Origin: a virus
Reading direction: 5' to 3' (one strand)
Virus record (IMG/VR): IMGVR_UViG_3300044644_000454
Coordinates: 1 to 28,367 of that record
DNA: 28,367 bases
The notes beneath the pieces are model-generated. The model was not told the DNA's origin, ran no database searches, and saw only the letters and a program-made list of their open reading frames with translations. Shown here piece after piece: positions 2,245 to 28,367 of this stretch (positions are counted from its first letter, which is position 1; each line of letters starts with the position of its first letter). Made by a program: the position numbers and the translations under genes.

Positions 2245-3240
2245 GTGAAAAAAATCGGCTTTGCTTGCAAGTATGTTGACAGCACTAAAACCGGGTTTGA
2301 AAATGTTAAAGAATTAAACATGGGAGCAACTACAGTTGCATGGCTAGGTCGTCAATCTAAACAAGTAGCAGAAAAAAAGCTGTGGGAAATTGCTATGCAA
2401 AATCTCACAGCAACTTCTAATCTTATTAGAAAGGTAGGTACTTTAGATGAACATTTACGTATGGTTCGTATCGGGTCTGATGTTATTCCAATGTATACTC
2501 ATGATTTATATCGCAGCTTTTGGCAAGAACCATCAAGAATCAAAATTATCGAACAAAACTTATCTAAGATTGGACAATATGCTAAAGATTCTAATATTCG
2601 TCTCAGTTTTCATCCTGGTCAGTTTGTGTGCATTGCTAGCGACAGAGATGATGTCATTACTAGATCTTTGGAAGAACTTGAATATCACGCTGACATGGCA
2701 AGATTTATGGGATTCGGTCAGTCTAAATTAGATTTTAAGATTAATGTACATGTTAGTGGTAGACGTGGTATAGCAGGTTTTGATGCTGCATGGCAACGAA
2801 TGAGTCCAGAACTGCGTAACTGCTTAACATTAGAGAACGACGAGTACCAACAAGGGTTAGATGAGTTGTTAGCTTTGAAAGACAAGGTTGGTATCGTGCT
2901 TGATATACATCATCATTTTATTAAAACAGGCGAATATATAAAAGCATCTGATCCTAGAATACAAGGTGTACTTGAAAGTTGGCAAGGTGTTAGACCAACA
3001 TTCCATTACAGTCAATCAAAATCAGAATTAATACCTCGTACTGGTATGACAACTATGGAAACATTACTTGAATCTACTTCTAAAAGTAAATTACGAGCTC
3101 ATAGTGATTTTTATACAAATAAAGATATTAACAGATGGGCACTAACACATCTTGAATGGGGTAACATGATGGCGGAATCTAAAGCTAAGAACCTAGCATC
3201 ATTTGAACTGTTTGACCAGTTTAAAGAAGAATTTATGTAA
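2245..3240 (+). CDS. uvdE: UV damage endonuclease (UvdE/UVDE family)
   Basis: UvdE enzymes are metal-dependent TIM-barrel endonucleases that nick DNA 5' of UV photoproducts and start an alternative excision-repair route. The 331-residue length fits the family. The metal-ligand signatures appear in order: HPGQF (123-127), H148 in the ELEYH segment, H169 in NVHVSG, LTLEND (E197), LDIHHH (219-224), HYSQS (254-258) and HSDF (286-289). The start is GTG, chosen because AGGTG precedes it and the ACKYV segment matches the family N-terminus. T4 itself uses the unrelated DenV glycosylase, so this is a different answer to UV damage, sensible for a phage in sunlit water. A terminator follows directly. 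Confidence 0.9.
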   Translation: MKKIGFACKYVDSTKTGFENVKELNMGATTVAWLGRQSKQVAEKKLWEIAMQNLTATSNLIRKVGTLDEHLRMVRIGSDVIPMYTHDLYRSFWQEPSRIKIIEQNLSKIGQYAKDSNIRLSFHPGQFVCIASDRDDVITRSLEELEYHADMARFMGFGQSKLDFKINVHVSGRRGIAGFDAAWQRMSPELRNCLTLENDEYQQGLDELLALKDKVGIVLDIHHHFIKTGEYIKASDPRIQGVLESWQGVRPTFHYSQSKSELIPRTGMTTMETLLESTSKSKLRAHSDFYTNKDINRWALTHLEWGNMMAESKAKNLASFELFDQFKEEFM

Positions 3241-3274: not shown

Positions 3275-3808
3275 TTATCCTGTATATCTACAATGGCTTT
3301 TGCGAGTTTCCCACAGCTCAACTGCAGTAACCTTTGCTACATCACCTATACGTGATTGAGCATATTCAAACAAATACTTACAAATGTTTTCACTAGTTGG
3401 TACAAAATCTACTAGTACAAAACTGTTATAATGTAATTGTTCACCTTCAGTTAATCCAACCCAGTTGTAACTTCCTAAGTTAGTAAAGTTTGCAAATGGG
3501 TGTTTGGCTTTGCTCCATTCGTTACCTGTAATTAACTTAAAGTTTGGATCATTGATATCAATCATAAACTTATGATCTAACACATCATCTACAAATTGTT
3601 TCATAAAGTTTAAATTCTTAAAGTCTGTAACCATTTCTGAATGATCTAACGTATCAGAACCTAAAAATACTTTAATTGAATAGCTGTGTCCGTGTAAATG
3701 CTTGCAGGCACAGTCAGTTGAAATACTTAACTCAACATGATTTAATTTTTGTGCCCATACTCTGTGTCCCATTTCAAAATGAAACTCTTTATCTATTTCC
3801 CATTTCAT
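3275..3808 (-). CDS. queD: 6-carboxytetrahydropterin synthase-like protein (QueD/PTPS family)
   Basis: QueD converts 7,8-dihydroneopterin triphosphate to 6-carboxytetrahydropterin, the second step towards preQ0 and 7-deazaguanines. The zinc ligands are visible as H15 in EMGHR and H39/H41 in LHGHSY, with the catalytic Cys at C35 (CKHLHGH spacing as in QueD). Further family marks are MVTDFKNLN, LDHKFMIDINDP, PTSENICKYLFEYA and the C-terminal VELWET glutamate. At 177 residues it is longer than bacterial QueD (about 120), with an insertion around residues 90-125. Some phages use this pathway to put deazaguanines in DNA to escape restriction; no other gene of the pathway lies in this window. A strong sigma70-type promoter precedes it. 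Confidence 0.85.
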   Translation of the reverse strand: MKWEIDKEFHFEMGHRVWAQKLNHVELSISTDCACKHLHGHSYSIKVFLGSDTLDHSEMVTDFKNLNFMKQFVDDVLDHKFMIDINDPNFKLITGNEWSKAKHPFANFTNLGSYNWVGLTEGEQLHYNSFVLVDFVPTSENICKYLFEYAQSRIGDVAKVTAVELWETRKSHCRYTG

Positions 3809-11838: not shown

Positions 11839-12048
11839 ATGTTGTTAATTTATTTTAAGGTGTTAGCTGTATTATTATTTTTTCTACTACAGTTTATTTT
11901 TGTACTACCATACTATATGTCATCAAACCAATGGTGGGAATTTAGTTTAGGTTGGTTTATTTTACTAATCATCGATCCAGTTGTAATTTACAAATTATGG
12001 AAAGATGCAGTTAAACCCGTTGACGAACTTTTTAAGGATGTAAAATAA
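11839..12048 (+). CDS. Small two-span membrane protein
   Basis: This 69-residue protein has two long hydrophobic stretches (LIYFKVLAVLLFFLLQFIFVL and GWFILLIIDPVVIYKLW) and a charged tail. A strong AAGGAGC SD precedes it. It ends in a TAATG overlap with the SPFH lipoprotein gene, suggesting the two act together at the inner membrane. No family is recognised. Confidence 0.7.
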   Translation: MLLIYFKVLAVLLFFLLQFIFVLPYYMSSNQWWEFSLGWFILLIIDPVVIYKLWKDAVKPVDELFKDVK

Positions 12049-12899
12049 TGAATAAATTACTATTAGTTGCTGCAATGGCTACTGTGCTTTCTGGCTGCTC
12101 AAATGTTAACGTAGGTGAAGTTGGTATTAAGGTACACTTACTCGGTGGTGACAAAGGGGTTGATTCAGAAATTTTATCACCAGGACGTTACTGGATCGGT
12201 GTTAATGAACGATTATACACGTTTCCGACTTTTATGCAAAACTACACATGGTCTAAATCCCACACTGAAGGTAATGCTGAAGATGAGTCTATTACGTTCC
12301 AAACTAAAGAAGGTTTATCTGTAAACGCTGACATTGGTATTACCTATACGTTACAACCAGATAAGATTCCAGTATTGTTCCAAAAGTATCGTAAAGGTAT
12401 CACCGAAATTACCGATGTGTACTTGCGTAACTTAGTGCGAGATGCGATTAATACAGAATCGTCTACTAAACCAATCGAATCAGTATACGGCGAAGGTAAA
12501 GCAGAGTTAATTAAAGCTGCCGAAGTTAGAGTGCGTGCTGAAATTGAACCATACGGCATTCATTTAGATCACTTGTCATGGGTTGGCAATATTAGATTGC
12601 CAGAAACTGTAACTAACGCAATCGATGCTAAGATTTCTGCATCACAAATTGCAATCACACGTCAAAATGAAATTGAAACTGCTAAAGCTGAAGCACAGAA
12701 AGCTATTGCAGTTGCAGAAGGCGAAGCTAATGCAAGATTGTTAGTAGCAGAAGCCGAAGCTAAAGCAATTCGGTTAAAAGGCGAAGCTGTTCGTAACAAT
12801 CCAGGTGTAGCAGAACTAAATGCTATTGAAAAATGGAATGGAGTATTACCTGTTACTATGTTACCAAATAGTTCAGTGCCGATGATTGGGATTAAGTAA
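12048..12899 (+). CDS. SPFH/prohibitin-like lipoprotein
   Basis: This 283-residue protein starts with a lipoprotein signal (MNKLLLVAAMATVLSGC, lipid-modified Cys at 17). A band-7/SPFH domain follows (residues about 22-190: GEVGIKVHLLG, LSVNADIGITYTL, YLRNLVRDAINTES, IEPYGIHLDHL). Then comes the Ala/Glu-rich coiled coil typical of prohibitin and HflK/C (ETAKAEAQKAIAVAEGEANA), which drives ring or microdomain assembly. Bacterial HflK/C cages restrain the FtsH protease; a phage copy might alter FtsH activity or stabilise the membrane, which is inference. Lipid anchoring instead of an N-terminal span is unusual for the family. An AAGGAT SD lies inside the preceding gene. The promoter leader is shared with clpA. 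Confidence 0.8.
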   Translation: MNKLLLVAAMATVLSGCSNVNVGEVGIKVHLLGGDKGVDSEILSPGRYWIGVNERLYTFPTFMQNYTWSKSHTEGNAEDESITFQTKEGLSVNADIGITYTLQPDKIPVLFQKYRKGITEITDVYLRNLVRDAINTESSTKPIESVYGEGKAELIKAAEVRVRAEIEPYGIHLDHLSWVGNIRLPETVTNAIDAKISASQIAITRQNEIETAKAEAQKAIAVAEGEANARLLVAEAEAKAIRLKGEAVRNNPGVAELNAIEKWNGVLPVTMLPNSSVPMIGIK

Positions 12900-18538: not shown

Positions 18539-19372
18539 ATGACAGACTTTTATTCAAAATTAGGTGTGTCGCAAGACGCATCACAGGACGATATTAAAAA
18601 AGCATATCGTTCATTAGCAAACAAACATCACCCAGACAAAGGCGGTTCTCCCGAAACCTTTAAAGATATCTCCGTAGCATATGACACACTAAGTGATCCA
18701 CAAAAACGTCAAGAATACGATATGCAACAAAGCGGTCATCACTTTGGTGGCTTTGGCGGTGGACAACATTTCCATTTTGACATGAACGATATGTTTGGTC
18801 AACATGCACATTTTACAAATATGTTTGGCAATGGATTTAGACAACAACGTAACAGAGACTTAAATCTACAAGTTCAAGTAACATTAGTCGAATCGTTTAA
18901 TGGAAAACAAGTAGATGCTACGTTTACGTTACCGAGTGGTCGACCGCAGACTGTAAACATTAATGTTCCTGCAGGTATTGACCACGGTGATACTATTAGA
19001 TATAATGGATTAGGTGACGATTCGATACCTAATGTTCCACGCGGGAATCTTAATGTAACTGTACATATACTACCTGACCGTAATTTTAGACGAGAAGGAA
19101 ATGATTTATATACAACATTAGACATTTCCCCAATCGAAGCAATGATTGGATGTACTAAAACTGTTAAAACAATAACAGGCGATACTGTTCAAATGCCAAT
19201 TAGGCCAGGTGTTGAATCAGGAACAGAATTTGCAAAGGCAGGCGCAGGGTTTACTAATTTACACAGTAAACAAACTGGAAGATTTGTTACTGTTATTAAA
19301 ATTGCTCCAGTATCAGTTACAGATCCTGTATTAGTAGCACAGTTACAGCAAATACAAAGCCAATTAAGTTGA
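18539..19372 (+). CDS. DnaJ/CbpA-like J-domain co-chaperone
   Basis: J-domain proteins stimulate DnaK ATPase and deliver substrates to it. This 277-residue protein has a J domain (residues 1-62) with the essential HPD in HHPDKGGS. A Gly/Phe/His-rich linker follows (GHHFGGFGGGQHFHFD), then two C-terminal substrate-binding domains (DLNLQVQVTLVESFNG, INVPAGIDHGDTIRYNGLGD, VRPGVESG-like). The CxxCxGxG zinc domain is absent, so it is of the CbpA/class II type. It would work with host DnaK, since no phage DnaK is seen. It is the first gene after the consensus promoter; the -35 of the clpA promoter overlaps its stop codon. Confidence 0.88.
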   Translation: MTDFYSKLGVSQDASQDDIKKAYRSLANKHHPDKGGSPETFKDISVAYDTLSDPQKRQEYDMQQSGHHFGGFGGGQHFHFDMNDMFGQHAHFTNMFGNGFRQQRNRDLNLQVQVTLVESFNGKQVDATFTLPSGRPQTVNINVPAGIDHGDTIRYNGLGDDSIPNVPRGNLNVTVHILPDRNFRREGNDLYTTLDISPIEAMIGCTKTVKTITGDTVQMPIRPGVESGTEFAKAGAGFTNLHSKQTGRFVTVIKIAPVSVTDPVLVAQLQQIQSQLS

Positions 19373-19430: not shown

Positions 19431-21713
19431 ATGGTTGAACCAAGCGAAAAACTACAAACTATTTTTGACAAAGCTATTACTGCTGCAAAAAACATGCATC
19501 ACGAATATGTTACTCTTGAGCATGTGTTGTTTTCGATGCTCATGGAAGATGAACAATTTGCTAATACTATTCAAGGGTATGGCGCAGACACTGTGTATCT
19601 TAAAAATTTAGTTTTAGATCATCTGCAAACTAAATGTCATGAGATTACTACACCCGAAGTAGTAGTTAAACCTAAAAAAACACAAGCAGTTGAACGATCA
19701 TTAAATCGTGCATTTACCCAAGTGTTGTTTAACGGCGGACAAAAGATTCAGCCTGTTGATTTTTTCCTAGCAATGTTAGGTGAAAAAAGATCATGGGCGT
19801 TTTATTACGTATCGCAAGTAAATATTTCTAAGGAAAAATTTAACGAATACTTAGTTAACGTAGCCGACGATGACGATATTACTACCGAATCAGTTAAATC
19901 GTCGCCTGTTAACAATAAAGCACTTCAAGCTTACACTACTAACTTAAACGAAGAAGTTAAGCAGAACAAAATTGACCCAGTTATCGGTCGTGTTGATGAA
20001 CTTGAGCATATTTCATTAGCACTAGGTCGTCGTAACAAAAATAATGTTATTTTAGTAGGCGATCCAGGCGTAGGTAAAACTGCAATTGCAGAAGGCCTTG
20101 CATATAACATCGTACAAGGCGCAGTTCCTGAATTTTTAACAGATTATACTGTTTATAATTTAGATATTGCTGCTATGTTAGCTGGTTCTAAATACCGTGG
20201 CGACTTTGAAGAACGCTTCAAATCAGTTATTAAATCTCTACAAAAGTTAGGCAAGTGTGTATTGTTTATCGACGAAGCACATATGATTAGTGGTGCAGGT
20301 GCATCTGGTAATTCTTCTAATGATTTAGCTAACATGATGAAACCTGCTCTTAGTAAAGGTAATATTAAAGTTATTGCATCTACTACATGGGATGAATATC
20401 GCAAACACTTTGAAAAAGATCGTGCATTGATGCGTAGATTCCAACGTATTACAGTTGACGAGCCTACACAGGAAATGACTTTGCAGATTCTTAAAGGTAT
20501 TAAGAAGTATTACGAAGGGCATCATAAACTTAAAATCAAAGATGATGCATTGCAAGCGTCGATTAAACTTTCAGTAAAATATCAAGCTGATAAAAAGCTA
20601 CCGGACAAAGCTATTGACCTAATCGATTGTGCATGTTCACGCTTTAATTTAAAACTTGCTGACGAACGAGTAGTTACTGAAGCTGAAATTCAATTTGAAT
20701 TAGCTAAAATGATTAATATGCCAGTTGAGCAAATTATGCAAACTGAAACTACTGCACTAGTTACTCTACAAGAAAAACTTGAAGCTGAAGTGTATGGTCA
20801 GGATACTGCATTAACCGAAATTGTTGACAAAATTATGGTTGCACAAGCAGGCTTAAAACCAGAAAACAAACCAATCGGTAGCTTTGTGTTTATGGGTCCT
20901 ACAGGTTGTGGTAAAACCGAAACTGCTAAAGCACTTGCTAAACATTTGAATACTAAATTATTGCGTTTTGATATGTCAGAGTATCAAGAGAAACACAGTA
21001 TTAGTAAACTGATCGGTAGTCCTCCAGGTTATGTAGGTTTTGAAGACAATGCAGGGTTGTTAATTACACAAATTCAAGAGAATCCTAACGCTGTATTATT
21101 ATTTGATGAGATCGAAAAATCACATCCCGATGTATCTACTGTATTACTACAGATGATGGATAACGGGTTTGTTACTGGATCAAATGGTAAACAAGCTGAT
21201 TGTCGTCACATTGTGTTAATTTTAACTACTAATGCAGGTGCGCAATCTGCAGAAAAGAATCAGATTGGCTTTGGTACTCAAGAAAAAGACTACTCGGATG
21301 CAGATCTTAAGAAGTTTTTATCGCCTGAGTTCCGTAACAGGTTAGACGGTGTTATTACGTTTAATAAGTTAAGTAAAGACTCTATGGTTAAAGTTATTAA
21401 CAAGTTTATCGATGAAGTACGTGAACAAGTTAAAGATAAAGGTATTCGTATTAAGATTGACAAAACTGCAACTAACTGGTTGTTAGAAAAAGGATTTGAT
21501 CCTAAGATGGGTGCTAGACCATTACATCGTGTAATTGATAAAGAGATCAAACGTGATCTTGCTAAAATGATGTTGTTCGGTGATCTTAAAAATGGTGGCT
21601 GGTTAACAATTAGTGTCACTGATGATAAAATTGCACTTATTGCTAAACCGAAAACCCCTAAAGTACCTGCAATTACACTTAACAAATTAGAGATTGACCA
21701 TGTCAGTGTATAA
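19431..21713 (+). CDS. clpA: ClpA-like AAA+ unfoldase
   Basis: At 760 residues it is as long as E. coli ClpA. Parts in order: Clp N-domain (1-145), first AAA+ module with Walker A GDPGVGKT (210-217), pore loop KYRG (254-257) and Walker B VLFIDEAH (277-284), second module with Walker A GPTGCGKT (489-496), pore-loop GYVG (533-536) and Walker B VLLFDE (555-560), then the D2 small domain. There is no ClpB-type middle coiled coil. QIGFG at 611-615 occupies the position of the ClpA IGL loop that docks on ClpP, so it should form a protease with host ClpP; no ClpP is in the window. It shares its promoter leader with the SPFH unit. Confidence 0.92.
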   Translation: MVEPSEKLQTIFDKAITAAKNMHHEYVTLEHVLFSMLMEDEQFANTIQGYGADTVYLKNLVLDHLQTKCHEITTPEVVVKPKKTQAVERSLNRAFTQVLFNGGQKIQPVDFFLAMLGEKRSWAFYYVSQVNISKEKFNEYLVNVADDDDITTESVKSSPVNNKALQAYTTNLNEEVKQNKIDPVIGRVDELEHISLALGRRNKNNVILVGDPGVGKTAIAEGLAYNIVQGAVPEFLTDYTVYNLDIAAMLAGSKYRGDFEERFKSVIKSLQKLGKCVLFIDEAHMISGAGASGNSSNDLANMMKPALSKGNIKVIASTTWDEYRKHFEKDRALMRRFQRITVDEPTQEMTLQILKGIKKYYEGHHKLKIKDDALQASIKLSVKYQADKKLPDKAIDLIDCACSRFNLKLADERVVTEAEIQFELAKMINMPVEQIMQTETTALVTLQEKLEAEVYGQDTALTEIVDKIMVAQAGLKPENKPIGSFVFMGPTGCGKTETAKALAKHLNTKLLRFDMSEYQEKHSISKLIGSPPGYVGFEDNAGLLITQIQENPNAVLLFDEIEKSHPDVSTVLLQMMDNGFVTGSNGKQADCRHIVLILTTNAGAQSAEKNQIGFGTQEKDYSDADLKKFLSPEFRNRLDGVITFNKLSKDSMVKVINKFIDEVREQVKDKGIRIKIDKTATNWLLEKGFDPKMGARPLHRVIDKEIKRDLAKMMLFGDLKNGGWLTISVTDDKIALIAKPKTPKVPAITLNKLEIDHVSV

Positions 21714-22344: not shown

Positions 22345-22719
22345 ATGCGTATTACAGACTTACTTGAAAACGCTCACTTTAAAAGTGAGGAATTTATTAA
22401 AAAAACTAACGATGGTAACGAAATTGATTACGATTTAATTGACGATTTAGTGTTTTATCTAAACAATGACGACAATGTATATCGTCATCATTTACTTCCT
22501 ACTATTCACAAATTTATCGATTTGCAAAAAGCAGATAAAGAAATTAAGTACACTATCTTTAAATCTGCAGTAGCAAAAGGATATAAAGAGTATATTAAAC
22601 AATATCCAATCCGTGAATTGCCAAACACCATTGATTCTAAATCATGGAGAGCAGTTTGTAAAAAACTGTTCAACGACATTTCTAAAGATATGGAAGATGG
22701 CCATTACGATCACAACTAA
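22345..22719 (+). CDS. Helical protein with T4 internal-protein-like N-terminus, unrecognised
   Basis: This 124-residue, mostly helical, acidic protein is the first gene after an exact late promoter. The start MRITDLLENAHF resembles the short capsid-targeting peptide of T4 internal proteins, with a possible cleavage after LLE. The remainder (YDLIDDLVFYLNNDDNVYR, HKFIDLQKADKEI, RAVCKKLFNDISKDM) has no known motif. Confidence 0.65.
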   Translation: MRITDLLENAHFKSEEFIKKTNDGNEIDYDLIDDLVFYLNNDDNVYRHHLLPTIHKFIDLQKADKEIKYTIFKSAVAKGYKEYIKQYPIRELPNTIDSKSWRAVCKKLFNDISKDMEDGHYDHN

Positions 22720-22743
22720 CATTTTTACTATATAGGTAACAAT

Positions 22744-24444
22744 ATGGCAGGAATTGCACACCCTGAAGATCTTATTATTAACGAAGGATCTGCAGGAGCT
22801 CACCGAGCAGTTAATGAATTAATTAATCTTTCAACATTAACTATTAAGTGGGACGGCTTTCCTGCAATAGTTTTTGGTAGAGATAAAAATGGAACTTTAG
22901 TGCTTGTTGATAAGCACATGTTCAAACAAGTTGCTAAAGGCAACCTCGAATTTACTTCAATTAGAGAATATGACTTAACCCGCAATATAGATCGCAATGA
23001 TTTATGGGATAAGGAAGACATTCTCCGTCCTGCATTAGACAAGATAATTCCAAACATAACTGACACTTATTACATGGGAGATTTGCTATGGGTTAACACT
23101 CCTGCAAGTATCGGTGATTCGTTCGTCTTTAAACCTAACACAGTTGAATATAGAGTTAAACATACTAGTGATTTAGGGCAGTCGATTGCTAGCAGTATTG
23201 GTGGTATTGCAGTACATACATTTATTTCCGGATTAACTGCAGAAGATGAACCGATTACTGGTTTTGATGTATTTTCAGATTGTAAGGATATTACATTTAT
23301 TGCAACTGAGATGAAACAGCCAAATGTTGTTATAAACAGCGTATTACTGCAAGCTGTACAAACTGCACTTGCTACACATTCCAGCGACGTAGATGCTACT
23401 ATTGCTAAATTAACTGAGTTAAAATGTAAAAGTGTAATTACTGCAATGGGGCCATTTATCACTAGTATGATTAATAGTGAAGATCTCTCTATTAACATTG
23501 CTAAACGATTTATCGAATTTACTACTCCTCGACTCACACAATCTGCTCATTCTAAATTGTTTTTACCAAATGGGAAAATACGTAAAGATGTTTACAACGG
23601 TATTATCGGACTATGGGAGATATGGAGTGCAATTTCTAATTTAAAATTAGATATTAAACAACAAATTGACGAGCAACAACTATACAGTGCAGTACAACCT
23701 GTAATAAATAGTATTATAAGTCATGAAGGTTATGTTTGCGGGGCCGGTACTAATAAAATAAAAATTGTTAATCGATTAGAATTTAGTCGTGCTAATTTTT
23801 CTAAATATAAAGTATCTGTTGAAGAAATTGAAATAAAAAGTAAAATGCCAATGGCAACTTTTTGCTTTGGTAGAATGAATCCTCCTACAGTCGGACATAA
23901 AACCGTTATACAACAAACTGTAGAACTCGGAAAAGAACATGCATACATATTTGCAAGCAATAAGCATGATCCAAAAAGTGACCCATTAGAATATAATGTT
24001 AAGACTGAATTTATTAAAAAGATTCATCCTGATTATTCTAACTTTATGGTAACTGAATATGTTAGAGATCCATGGCAAGCTGCATGTTGGTTATATGATA
24101 GAGGTTACAGACATATGACATTTGTGGCAGGAAGTGATAGATTAGGTGCAGGTAATCTCAGTTTAGAATCTGCACTTAACAATTGGAATAGCGGCCCATC
24201 TCGCACATCGGATTATGCCCGCGGTCCGAATGGTAGGGAACATGTAGTATTAAAATTTGTTAGTAGTGGAAATCGTAAAGATAACACTAATAACGCTAGC
24301 GGTACATTAGCGCGTGAGTACGCTAAACTAGGTGACAAAATTAATTTCCAACTAATAACTGGTGTAAGTGAAGATATCACAGTATGTGGTAAAACACTAT
24401 ACGAAGCTACACGGGAGGGAATGAATGTACAACGGAATGAATAA
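22744..24444 (+). CDS. Fusion of a ligase-type (KxDG) and an HxGH-type nucleotidyltransferase
   Basis: This 566-residue protein has two enzyme-like parts. The N-terminal part has KWDG (35-38), matching motif I of ATP-dependent DNA/RNA ligases and capping enzymes, whose Lys takes the AMP. Also present are YYMGDLLW (109-116), possibly motif III, HEGYV (327-331), like motif IV, and K338-I-K340, like motif V. The gap between motifs I and IV is larger than usual, with a helical insertion (about 190-320). The C-terminal part (from about 368) starts FCFGRMNPPTVGH, whose TVGH is the (H/T)xGH motif of NMNAT/cytidylyltransferase-type enzymes, and has GSDR at 463-466. I infer a nucleotide-transfer, NAD or RNA-end reaction; the substrate is unknown. 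Confidence 0.65.
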   Translation: MAGIAHPEDLIINEGSAGAHRAVNELINLSTLTIKWDGFPAIVFGRDKNGTLVLVDKHMFKQVAKGNLEFTSIREYDLTRNIDRNDLWDKEDILRPALDKIIPNITDTYYMGDLLWVNTPASIGDSFVFKPNTVEYRVKHTSDLGQSIASSIGGIAVHTFISGLTAEDEPITGFDVFSDCKDITFIATEMKQPNVVINSVLLQAVQTALATHSSDVDATIAKLTELKCKSVITAMGPFITSMINSEDLSINIAKRFIEFTTPRLTQSAHSKLFLPNGKIRKDVYNGIIGLWEIWSAISNLKLDIKQQIDEQQLYSAVQPVINSIISHEGYVCGAGTNKIKIVNRLEFSRANFSKYKVSVEEIEIKSKMPMATFCFGRMNPPTVGHKTVIQQTVELGKEHAYIFASNKHDPKSDPLEYNVKTEFIKKIHPDYSNFMVTEYVRDPWQAACWLYDRGYRHMTFVAGSDRLGAGNLSLESALNNWNSGPSRTSDYARGPNGREHVVLKFVSSGNRKDNTNNASGTLAREYAKLGDKINFQLITGVSEDITVCGKTLYEATREGMNVQRNE

Positions 24445-24851: not shown

Positions 24852-25112
24852 GTGAAACAGTATAGAATAACATCTGAGAATATACTACAAGACAGTCCTG
24901 ATGACTGTTTTCTCGCATCTGATGATCCAATACATGAATTAAAAATTGCTCAGTATTTAGGTGGATTAGGTGCTGAAGCTAGATTACATGAATATCGTGT
25001 TAACCAAGCTGAACAAAAAGCGTTTAGTGACGAACGCGGTAAATATCAACGCGAAAACAATATCAAACCCGGAACACCTGCATGGTTTGAATTGTGGGGT
25101 AATAAATTATGA
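24852..25112 (+). CDS. Small protein with GTG start, unrecognised
   Basis: This 86-residue protein begins with GTG three bases after the previous stop, without a clear SD, so initiation probably depends on coupling. It is acidic and helical, with SPDDCFLASDDPIHELKIAQ and QAEQKAFSDERGKYQRENN, ending GTPAWFELWGNKL. It overlaps the next gene as ATGA. No family is recognised. Confidence 0.6.
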   Translation: MKQYRITSENILQDSPDDCFLASDDPIHELKIAQYLGGLGAEARLHEYRVNQAEQKAFSDERGKYQRENNIKPGTPAWFELWGNKL

Positions 25113-25372
25113 GAATTAGAGAAATTATAGTAGAATTTGCATCAGCCGGTGCAACTAGTTCTGCAAACATCGGCACAGTTGCCAATCCACATATTAGCCC
25201 AGGAAAAGCTAGAGGCAAAAAATCATATACAGGTAGCATGGCTACTGGTAGCGGAACTAAAGCACCTCCGCAACCTAAAGTAGTACAACCTAAAAATCCA
25301 GACGGCACTGCTAAAAATGGTGCCGATCTAAATGTCAGTTTATTTGGCGGCGGAACTATTAAAAGAGGCTAA
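25109..25372 (+). CDS. Small basic, Gly/Pro-rich protein with internal-protein-like N-terminus
   Basis: This 87-residue protein has the start MRIREIIVEFASAGATSS, very like the T4 internal-protein leader MKTYQEFIAE, with a possible protease site after IVE. The rest is Gly/Lys/Pro-rich and probably disordered (SPGKARGKKSYTG, KAPPQPKVVQPKNPDG), ending FGGGTIKRG. The basic composition would suit a packaged internal head protein; this is inference. Confidence 0.65.
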   Translation: MRIREIIVEFASAGATSSANIGTVANPHISPGKARGKKSYTGSMATGSGTKAPPQPKVVQPKNPDGTAKNGADLNVSLFGGGTIKRG

Positions 25373-26512: not shown

Positions 26513-27112
26513 ATGGATATGAAAGCAATTCTACAGGCAATGGATTCAGTTAAGACATCTGCTCCTATAGAAAATACAGACGACATGAAGAAATTCATGT
26601 CAATTGTTACAGAAGGATCAAATCCTCATAAAGTTGCATTACCTGTACAACTGGCAATGCAACATTATGCCACGCCTGTTAAAGATGAACTGTCTAAACC
26701 AGCATTAGCAAGACCTTCGTTACTTAAACAGTACATGGCTGAAGCATCTGAAGAACAAGAACAAGCACGTTATGCAAAGAAAGCAGAAATTAATCAGTAT
26801 GCACAATACATTGCAAACAAAGTAATGGAAAATACAATACCTGGCCATTCGCCCGGATTTACCGGTGGTGTCGGTCCAGGCACGGAACCACAAGAATCTT
26901 TTAACAATCCTCAAGATGTAGTTACATTAGATGTTCCGTTGCTTATTCGATTATTTGAATATTCTAGAGAAGATGCTCAAACCGATATGGATTTGCATAA
27001 TGTAGCAGACATGTTAATTAAGTTAAGTGCCACAGGTGAGGTGCTAACAATGGACAATTATGATCAGATAGTTGGCGATCAGCAACTAATAGGACCTCCA
27101 GAGGAAGACTAA
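26513..27112 (+). CDS. Putative virion-associated protein, unrecognised
   Basis: This 199-residue protein starts two bases after the previous stop, with no clear SD; a second in-frame ATG at 26519 is possible. The first part is flexible (MDMKAILQAMDSV, MAEASEEQEQARYAKKAEIN). The C-terminal part carries DVPLLIRLFEYSREDAQTDMDLHNVADMLIKLS (residues about 140-172), a block I associate with conserved proteins of marine T4-type phages. It is coupled to the next gene by TAATG. Confidence 0.65.
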   Translation: MDMKAILQAMDSVKTSAPIENTDDMKKFMSIVTEGSNPHKVALPVQLAMQHYATPVKDELSKPALARPSLLKQYMAEASEEQEQARYAKKAEINQYAQYIANKVMENTIPGHSPGFTGGVGPGTEPQESFNNPQDVVTLDVPLLIRLFEYSREDAQTDMDLHNVADMLIKLSATGEVLTMDNYDQIVGDQQLIGPPEED

Positions 27113-28367
27113 TGAATTTTAGAGATTTAATGAATAAACTAGACAACATTAATAATGGAATGTTGGCTGAAGGGTTAACACTATCTGCAATCATTGCAGT
27201 AACATCAGGGTATGAACAAGATGATAAGGTAAGAATACCAAAATTAGCACAATTAGCTAAAGAAAACGGTTTAGAAGGATTAGTTGATCCAGTAAATGGA
27301 AATTATATTTCAAACGAAGGCGAAGTAGACGATGAAGTACCATTTGAAATTGCGCAAAAATTATCAGCAGCTGGTCTATTGCCTAAAAACGCTAGATTGC
27401 CGCAGGCAGGTTGGTTTGACAACGAAGACACCTTTAAAAAAGCAAACGCGGACTTAGTTAGTCAAAGTTCTCAAATTTCAGGTGATGCAGATGCGTTACA
27501 TGATAAAATTAAACAAATGATGGACTTGTTTAATAAAATTTTAGAATTACGTAAAAAACGCGCTGATAAAAACTTAGCAGCTAATAGCTTAGGATCACCT
27601 GGTGCAAATGCAGCAGCTGCCAATGCTATTACTCCTCCAAATATTGCTAATACACTAAACAACATTCAAACTAGTATGAAAGATGCAAGTGCTGGACTAG
27701 CAAATGCACCTGCTGGACTTAAAGAATCATACGGTATGGCTAATGCATTACTTGACAGCTTCGGTTATGAACAGTTAAATGAAGATCTTGCAAGCGACGC
27801 AGGAGACCTTGGACGCGGTGTATGGAACGGTGTTACATGGGGTACTGGTAGCAATATTAATGCCGGGGTTAAAAGTTTAGTTAAAGGAACCAAATATAAA
27901 GACGAACTAGCAGGGGAACTTGCTGCTAATAAAGCAGCCGAAGAAAGAAGTCCATGGTTATACGGTGGTGGTGACTTAGCTGGAAGTTTTGTAACTCCGG
28001 GCGGTGCAGCTAAAGGTCTTGCAGGTGCTGCAGGTGTAGTAGGTAAACGATATATTGCAGGACAAGCAGTCGATGCAGCTAATGCACATACTTTAGGTAC
28101 CCAACAAACTCCAGTAGGTCCGCATCCTGCAGGTAATGCTGGTACTAATCATATCATGGCATTGCAACAACAATTAAAAGCTAAAGGTGCTGACTTAGGT
28201 ACAAGCGGTCCTAACCACGACGGCGTTGACGGAATTATGGGGCCTAAAACTAAAGCAGCACAAGCAAAATTTGGCATTAAAGAAGGTACAGAAATGAAAC
28301 AATTAACAGTAGCTGAATCAATTGCAGCTATGCGTGATACATTGGAACGTATTAACAATCCACAAGT
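27112..28367 (+). CDS. Virion-associated protein with peptidoglycan-binding domain, C-terminus cut by window edge
   Basis: The frame is open from ATG 27112 (TAATG overlap, AGAGGAAG SD) to the right edge, 418 codons. The start MNFRDLMNKLDNINNGMLAE could be an internal-protein-type leader with cleavage after LAE. Residues about 230-330 are Ala/Gly/Asn-rich with mildly hydrophobic stretches (LGRGVWNGVTWGTGSN). Around residues 347-382, IMALQQQLKAKG and DGVDGIMGPKTKAAQAKFG match the PG_binding_1 fold, which binds cell-wall peptide or glycan. A protein carried in the virion that touches the wall at entry is the simplest reading. Any catalytic domain could lie beyond the edge. Confidence 0.65.
   Translation, partial: MNFRDLMNKLDNINNGMLAEGLTLSAIIAVTSGYEQDDKVRIPKLAQLAKENGLEGLVDPVNGNYISNEGEVDDEVPFEIAQKLSAAGLLPKNARLPQAGWFDNEDTFKKANADLVSQSSQISGDADALHDKIKQMMDLFNKILELRKKRADKNLAANSLGSPGANAAAANAITPPNIANTLNNIQTSMKDASAGLANAPAGLKESYGMANALLDSFGYEQLNEDLASDAGDLGRGVWNGVTWGTGSNINAGVKSLVKGTKYKDELAGELAANKAAEERSPWLYGGGDLAGSFVTPGGAAKGLAGAAGVVGKRYIAGQAVDAANAHTLGTQQTPVGPHPAGNAGTNHIMALQQQLKAKGADLGTSGPNHDGVDGIMGPKTKAAQAKFGIKEGTEMKQLTVAESIAAMRDTLERINNPQ

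Follow-up and report, generated by a model that had tools for sequence, protein, structure and literature searches.

Two groups of nucleotide-transferring enzymes stand closest to the protein described here. In the lysine-dependent ligase/capping superfamily, which includes T4 Rnl1 and Rnl2, fungal Trl1 and the RNA ligase of Naegleria gruberi (which we take to be of the Rnl5 type), the motifs run in the order KxDG, EGxV and motif V lysine, the acidic residue of motif III is usually Glu, and motif V usually holds two lysines (KxK). The NMNAT and PPAT enzymes, such as NadM/NadR and CoaD, are recognised by the motifs named (H/T)xGH and SxTxxR. An enzyme of the latter kind has been reported from cyanophage particles: Sullivan et al. 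2010 (PMC3037559) detected the GC190 cytidylyltransferase in virions of S-SM1, S-SCSM1 virions contain an NMNAT (PMC9602691) and S-CREM2 virions a cytidylyltransferase, ORF154 (PMC10665884), with carry-over held possible in the last two papers. Here we describe a gene on a virus fragment of 28,367 bases (IMG/VR record IMGVR_UViG_3300044644_000454; this whole stretch is referred to as the window) that fuses such an enzyme, hereafter the partner, to a member of DUF6267 (PF19782), also catalogued as T4-GC71 and PHROG 455. These families carry no function, and a PubMed Central (PMC) search found no literature on DUF6267.

We read the fused protein as a two-headed nucleotidyltransferase in which lysine adenylylation with joining of nucleic-acid ends is coupled to an NMNAT-like reaction, and we give this reading a probability of about one half. 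The fusion joins known kinds of enzyme, of which the NMNAT-like enzyme of phage particles was already known, whereas the ligase-type enzyme had not been recognised; the novelty lies in a cyanophage family, near-universal and without known function, that looks ligase-like and is tied to a virion enzyme.

The fused gene and its ligase-like half

The gene starts with ATG at 22744 and runs as a single open frame of 566 amino acids to a stop codon at 24442-24444. The original prediction had seen in it two unrelated nucleotidyltransferase folds in one protein; the predicted folds of both halves confirm this, and every motif that had been cited (K35 of KxDG, residues 109-116, EGYV, KIK, TVGH and GSDR) is present where it had been placed; their conservation, given below, exceeds what chance would leave. 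The gene and the features of its N-terminal half, which is also the part covered by PHROG 455, are as follows.

22744..24444, + strand: fused gene, 566 amino acids, DUF6267 (putative ligase-type nucleotidyltransferase) plus NMNAT/PPAT-type nucleotidyltransferase (open reading frame, Pfam, fold models)
22734..22737, + strand: AGGT, ribosome-binding-site-like, 6 bases 5' of the ATG (putative, from the sequence)
22744..23811, + strand: DUF6267, predicted ligase-fold domain, residues 1-356 (Pfam match over residues 5-355, E 3.3e-35; model; VIA-align Z 9.1)
22846..22857, + strand: motif I, K35-W-D-G38, with the predicted nucleotidylated lysine (K35, D37 and G38 invariant in 103 rows)
23068..23091, + strand: motif III, YYMGDLLW, residues 109-116, D113 replacing the usual Glu (D113 invariant in 103 rows, 62/62)
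23215..23220, + strand: H158-T159, motif IIIa region (H158 invariant in 103 rows)
23338..23676, + strand: helical insertion, residues 199-311, between motifs IIIa and IV (model helices at 199-225, 229-244, 252-263, 266-272 and 281-311)
23725..23736, + strand: motif IV, E328-G-Y-V331 (E328, G329 and V331 invariant in 103 rows)
23755..23775, + strand: motif V region, K338-I-K340-I-V-N-R344 (of these, K340 and R344 alone are invariant)

The 103 rows comprise the window protein and 102 relatives from IMG/VR, which for the most part share 20-33% identity with it; contig-end open reading frames (ORFs) except one, loci of named phages, nine rows with a divided domain match and a single fragment were excluded, and of rows more than 85% identical one was kept. 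The invariant columns are H6, E8, G15, K35, D37, G38, G45, K57, D113, Y136, H158, K301, E328, G329, V331, K340, R344, F347, S348 and F352. Among 257 whole DUF6267 ORFs away from contig edges, KxDG is present in 256 (the exception is a fragment), and both EG[FYWI]V and K-hydrophobic-hydrophobic-x-R are present in all 257. Comparison of the window with 11 relatives points to purifying selection on residues 1-165 (omega 0.10-0.21) and on residues 368-566 (0.07-0.14), with the linker, residues 357-367, having the highest omega among five blocks in 9 of the 11 comparisons and the block 166-317 exceeding residues 1-165 in all 11.

An AlphaFold2 model of residues 1-360 (predicted local distance difference test, pLDDT, 91.4; predicted TM-score, pTM, 0.88) places K35 in the expected arrangement of strand end, KxDG loop and next strand. 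Folded alone, this half matches ligase nucleotidyltransferases, as had been anticipated: among the 50 VIA-align rows listed, the titles of 46 name ligases, and the remaining four rows are single chains from non-homologous end-joining complexes that align over the range of the DNA ligase IV rows. The top match is the Naegleria gruberi RNA ligase (Z 9.1 to 8.6, 182-188 residues, root-mean-square deviation 3.9-4.0; for the best, Z 9.1, 4.0 over 187 residues), followed by T4 Rnl1 and Rnl2 (7.8), Trl1 (7.4), archaeal RNA ligases and DNA ligases. When the model of residues 1-354 is aligned to residues 144-339 of the Naegleria chain, K340 falls near K326 and E328 near E312, which is consistent with a common site but is not a residue alignment. 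Among viral models, Foldseek ranks uncharacterised and cytidyltransferase-like phage proteins first, and the first row that is not a cytidyltransferase, NrdB or an uncharacterised or unnamed protein is an RNA ligase (E 2.4e-3, probability 0.96).

Several results weigh against a ligase assignment. The Z score of 9.1 is modest, and the 12 listed chains above Z 8 are all one enzyme; Foldseek against the Protein Data Bank (PDB) is weak (best E 0.03, a DNA ligase). None of the 103 rows matches the Pfam ligase models PF01068, PF09414, PF09511 or PF01653 at E 0.01, and hhalign found no match between DUF6267 and relatives of T4 Rnl2, whether whole or with the insertion columns removed, or the RNA and DNA ligases of the 372-kb phages described below; the partner profile, used as negative control, scored like these ligase comparisons. 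PDB sequence searches, run both with the protein itself and with a profile of its N-terminal half, gave nothing meaningful. The acidic residue of motif III is Asp113, not Glu, in all rows, and K338 of the window is not conserved among relatives, so that of the two motif V lysines one is constant. An OB domain stands neither before nor after the ligase-like domain, and motif VI is absent; five split relatives end about 18 to 28 residues past the motif V lysine, and in the fusion the NMNAT-like domain follows.

As Foldseek is weak and hhalign empty, the ligase assignment rests on the fold together with the ordered, invariant motifs. On these grounds the N-terminal half very probably has a ligase fold and an active site of the ligase type, likely formed by K35, D113, E328 and K340, with motifs I and IV both found in ligase form. 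Because the motifs are divergent and no profile matches, we limit our claim to this fold and a likely active site and do not assign the protein to a known family: DUF6267 is probably a new clade, divergent in sequence, within the lysine-dependent ligase/capping superfamily, with RNA ligases nearest in modelled fold. It shares with them the nucleotidyltransferase core, the KxDG-type lysine, EGxV and the motif V lysine, but differs in the motif III Asp, the single motif V lysine, the helical insertion between motifs IIIa and IV, the lack of an OB or C-terminal accessory domain and the lack of a profile match to T4 Rnl2 relatives.

A LigA-like scheme in which the NMNAT half recycles NMN was considered and rejected. 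NAD-dependent DNA ligases carry an NMN-binding Ia domain upstream of the lysine, whereas PF01653 matches none of the 103 rows and only 34 residues precede K35, too few to house it. Pfam matches to Dit_C (E 0.0034; 3 of the 103 rows) were judged to be chance.

The NMNAT/PPAT-type half and its link to the phage particle

The C-terminal half belongs with the cyanophage virion protein T4-GC190 and is described by PHROGs 3041 and 395 (cytidyltransferase). Its features are as follows.

23845..24435, + strand: NMNAT/PPAT-fold domain, residues 368-564 (PHROG 3041, E 7e-26; VIA-align Z 12.8)
23869..23898, + strand: GRMNPPTVGH, residues 376-385, HxGH-type NTP-binding motif in its TxGH variant (conservation)
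24130..24141, + strand: GSDR, residues 463-466 (G463 and R466 in 30 of 30 rows, D465 in 29 of 30)
24298..24315, + strand: SGTLAR, residues 519-524, counterpart of SxTxxR (S519 and R524 in 30 of 30 rows)

G384 and H385 are likewise kept in all 30 rows, and the first motif is conserved in the form GRxxPPTxGH. The expected match of residues 368-564 to NMNAT/PPAT folds was obtained: PPAT scores Z 12.8 (root-mean-square deviation 3.0 over 151 residues) and NMNAT 1ej2 Z 12.6, a tie by which the fold does not choose the substrate. Pfam CTP_transf_like gives a sub-threshold match over 374-427 (E 0.003). Fold and both motifs are thus shared with NadM/NadR NMNAT and with PPAT (CoaD), but the domain stays far under the family cut-offs: NCBIfam NMNAT models match weakly in 14 of 25 members, and against NMNAT proper (TIGR00482) the window domain reaches 19.9 bits, short of the equivalog cut-off of 112.45. 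In the full-length model (pLDDT 90.1, pTM 0.72) all 50 listed VIA-align rows fall on this domain, so that search is uninformative on the N-terminal one. PDB matches of the partner profile to S-layer proteins (E 0.008; about 50 residues round the GxDR stretch) were judged to be chance. A PMC search on phage or cyanophage cytidyltransferases and on NMNAT-ligase fusions returned nothing on the topic by title.

In cyanophages the partner is mostly a separate gene, and many of its forms begin with a leader resembling a capsid-targeting sequence. A leader like MKKFSAFLTEA starts 91 of 146 distinct stand-alone partner ORFs, a number that shuffling lowers to a mean of 0.115, compared with 29 of 1222 other ORFs; the 1222 include spurious frames and true leader proteins, and since the pattern was written after examples had been seen, these counts are descriptive. 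The same leader occurs on 9 of 284 DUF6267 ORFs, all nine counted within the 29. It resembles the MKTYQEFIAEA with which the T4 internal proteins IpII and IpIII start, a likeness confined to the leader. The window protein, which starts MAGIAHPEDL, has no such leader.

Three further observations concern such genes elsewhere. In S-CREM2, gp156 (L285:6013-6726), an NTP_transf_2 (pol-beta-type) protein two genes past the cytidylyltransferase, is in the published virion list and is a third nucleotidyltransferase fold in that gene cluster. An adenylate kinase with the capsid-targeting-like leader MKSFKQYFFEA lies in the same kind of neighbourhood (L101:720-1292). The NMNAT-like domain itself recurs as a module of large phage proteins, joined to PAP2 and NTP_transf_2 (L111:1661-4555), to DUF192 and HNH_3, the match being below the cut-off (L109:3329-6040), or to a Zeta/AAA_33 kinase and DUF5824 (L112:2741-5065).

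Pairing and fusion across phages

The two halves form a conserved pair, which T4-like cyanophages usually carry as adjacent genes. The partner is fused to DUF6267 in 40 of 284 DUF6267 ORFs and lies within -200 to 1500 bases in 198; 30 are near a contig end. Counted as distinct sequences, 26 of 240 are fused, and 163 of the 194 split ones away from contig edges are adjacent to the partner. Among same-strand pairs, DUF6267 has the partner downstream in 199 cases and upstream in none; both this count and that on the 284 ORFs include near-duplicate loci. On a quick maximum-likelihood tree of the 103 rows, the fused state requires at least three changes, also when starred branches alone are used, the number being unsure because some long branches meet. 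In the record LN828717 of S-PM2, a deletion mutant, the fusion is one ORF of 591 amino acids (S-PM2d138, T4-GC71), while older S-PM2 records hold two pieces annotated as separate genes; in P-SSM7 the T4-GC71-like and GC190 genes are neighbours. The fusion is thus not peculiar to the phage of the window: the pair is a conserved neighbourhood that is fused in an S-PM2 record too. A stretch with DUF6267 and the partner in phage metaG-MbCM1 (JN371769, 145353-147065) is labelled 'NrdB ribonucleotide reductase A subunit', which looks like a misannotation.

A protein identical to that of the window is encoded in a 372-kb IMG/VR contig (G001, locus L001), and a 72%-identical fusion in a second 372-kb contig (G002, locus L032); the phage that owns the fused gene is therefore probably a jumbo phage. 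A scan of genome contigs gave 35 loci, mostly on contigs titled as metagenome-assembled genomes or bins, with one isolate, Nonlabens xiamenensis.

In T4-like cyanophages, DUF6267 has nearly as many records as UvsX. By the first word of the record name, tblastn matched DUF6267 in 371 Synechococcus, 61 Cyanophage and 24 Prochlorococcus records, and UvsX, among the names listed, in 375 Synechococcus and 61 Cyanophage records. With the S-CRM01 DNA ligase and T4 Rnl2 as queries, Synechococcus fell outside the ten commonest names, so that at most 20 and 28 Synechococcus records, respectively, match. In 136 loci gp41 precedes the gene, and in 47 gp61 follows it. In some lineages its company is suggestive of RNA repair: 12 ORFs, from 12 loci, match the Zeta/AAA_33-type kinase domain of L112, with a fusion to the partner in six, and DUF6267 is preceded by a HAD phosphatase-like ORF in 2 of 251 loci, one of which matches HAD_SAK_1 just below the cut-off.

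What the two halves may do together

In the reading that we prefer, K35 would take up AMP, or another nucleoside monophosphate, from a nucleotide, with D113 and E328 giving metal help and K340 contacting the phosphate; the monophosphate would then be passed to an acceptor end, most likely the 5'-phosphate of RNA or of nicked nucleic acid, for sealing. The C-terminal half would condense a nucleoside triphosphate with a phosphorylated small molecule or end. We propose that action in one pathway explains why the halves lie side by side in most of the retrieved relatives and have become one protein in several lineages. With a T4-like leader on the partner in cyanophages, and on the ligase-like protein in some marine phages, the pair would probably have its role at an early stage of infection in these phages. 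The chemistry of each half, the nucleic-acid acceptor and the joint action are inferred from sequence, conservation, predicted folds and gene order. Of the roles in the original prediction, RNA repair is the one to which the fold and a few neighbourhoods point; the protein may also make and use an NAD-linked end on RNA.

The joint action has its own counter-evidence. In 16 of the 284 DUF6267 ORFs there is no nearby partner although the contig continues, and in S-SCSM1, S-CREM2 and S-CRM01 the two genes are not adjacent. Since these loci were retrieved by a few queries, including two taken from phages with the pair, the gene-order counts describe the retrieved loci and not all phages. The orientation between the domains is unsure in the full-length model. 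In the two phages whose virions contain the partner, DUF6267 itself is either absent from the published virion list (S-CREM2, gp87) or not marked as a virion protein (S-SCSM1, SSCSM1_257). The virion protein SSCSM1_90, encoded next to the NMNAT of S-SCSM1, was examined as a possible DUF6267 member and proved not to belong to the family.

In a different proposal, DUF6267 is the missing replicative, nick-sealing DNA ligase of T4-like cyanophages and the NMNAT-like protein its helper. The near-equal record counts of DUF6267 and UvsX fit it, as does the position of the P-SSM7 gene between gp41 and gp61. DUF6267 is present in all of nine Kyanoviridae records, seven of which were selected for holding a match; none of them matches PF09414, PF09511 or PF01653, and only one, S-CRM01, matches PF01068. 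T4 has PF01068, PF09414 and PF09511, and Deifobo, a Pseudomonas phage with the partner, has PF01068; DUF6267 was found in neither. Clokie et al. 2010 (PMC2984593) state that g30 homologues were not found in cyanomyoviruses and allow that distant ones may have gone unidentified, but they judge true absence, with the host ligase serving, to be more probable. The lack of an OB domain and of motif VI is awkward for a DNA ligase. G001, with the identical fusion, has a DNA ligase and both Rnl1-type and Rnl2-type RNA ligases besides, and S-CRM01 and Stenotrophomonas phage DLP6, which has a DUF6267 match and a gp30 DNA ligase (PMC5349666), each carry both. Moreover, the genome family search misses members: it gave no PF09414 for G002, yet one ORF there scores 38.6 against a cut-off of 27 bits, so blanks, including that for NAMPT in G001, are not proof. 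On balance we consider this proposal unlikely. Nonetheless, DUF6267 offers a ligase candidate for T4-like cyanophages, which are reported to lack DNA ligase; it bears on the published question of how breaks in DNA or RNA are sealed in phages without a recognised ligase of their own, and it gives a testable activity to a family whose cyanophage record counts nearly equal those of UvsX.

The original prediction had also raised NAD-salvage counter-defence. In the form considered here, the C-terminal half would be the NMNAT of the phage and the N-terminal half would use or sense NAD. The NMNAT fold, the weak NMNAT-model matches and published suggestions for the cyanophage virion NMNAT (PMC9602691 and PMC10665884) lend it some weight, but the score against TIGR00482 and the tie with PPAT do not single out NMNAT. 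G002 has NAMPT and an NMNAT-Nudix protein apart from its fusion, which therefore seems not to be needed for NAD salvage there, and G001 shows no NAPRT or NAMPT match and no second NMNAT-like match, in a search that can miss members. We thus disfavour this role and regard it as quite improbable. Least likely to our mind is an N-terminal half that acts as a modifier for host takeover, with a protein or a small molecule in place of a nucleic-acid end as acceptor of the nucleotide, like T4 Alt in role but not in fold: the capsid-targeting-like leaders of relatives, the large helical insertion and the lack of a recognised nucleic-acid-binding accessory domain would suit such an enzyme, but the nearest folds act on nucleic-acid ends and the cyanophage genes lie near replication genes.

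Returning to the two-headed nucleotidyltransferase, a bolder and rather doubtful extension is that DUF6267 is an overlooked, OB-less clade of polynucleotide ligases that nearly all T4-like cyanophages possess and that provides the end-joining they had been believed to lack. Together with the partner and, in some lineages, a kinase and a phosphatase, it would make up an end-repair kit. Parts of this kit, packed in the head, would enter with the DNA, and jumbo phages would have welded its two core enzymes together.

Some minor observations remain. In G002, NAMPT and NMNAT-Nudix genes lie side by side (L330, 40-5330) and form a phage cluster dedicated to NAD salvage; close to them are an Rnl2-type RNA ligase and an ORF that is macrodomain-like by eye (no Pfam match). 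RNA folding around the start codon of the fused gene is no better than in shuffled sequences; promoter-like sites number 18 against 19.9 in shuffles, and terminator-like sites 6 against 2.7 +/- 1.5. The window ORFs flanking the gene at 22345-22719, 25109-25372, 26513-27112 and 27112-28365 have short hydrophobic-acidic N-termini resembling prohead-targeting leaders (MRITDLLENA, MRIREIIVEF, an internal MKKFMSIVTEG and MNFRDLMNKL), of which only MKKFMSIVTEG matches the leader pattern. Elsewhere in the window, by eye, 2245-3240 is UV-endonuclease-like, 3275-3808 6-pyruvoyl-tetrahydropterin-synthase-like, 12048-12899 SPFH/prohibitin-like and 18539-19372 DnaJ-like, and 19431-21713 encodes a Clp-type ATPase (PHROG 4871, ATP-dependent protease).

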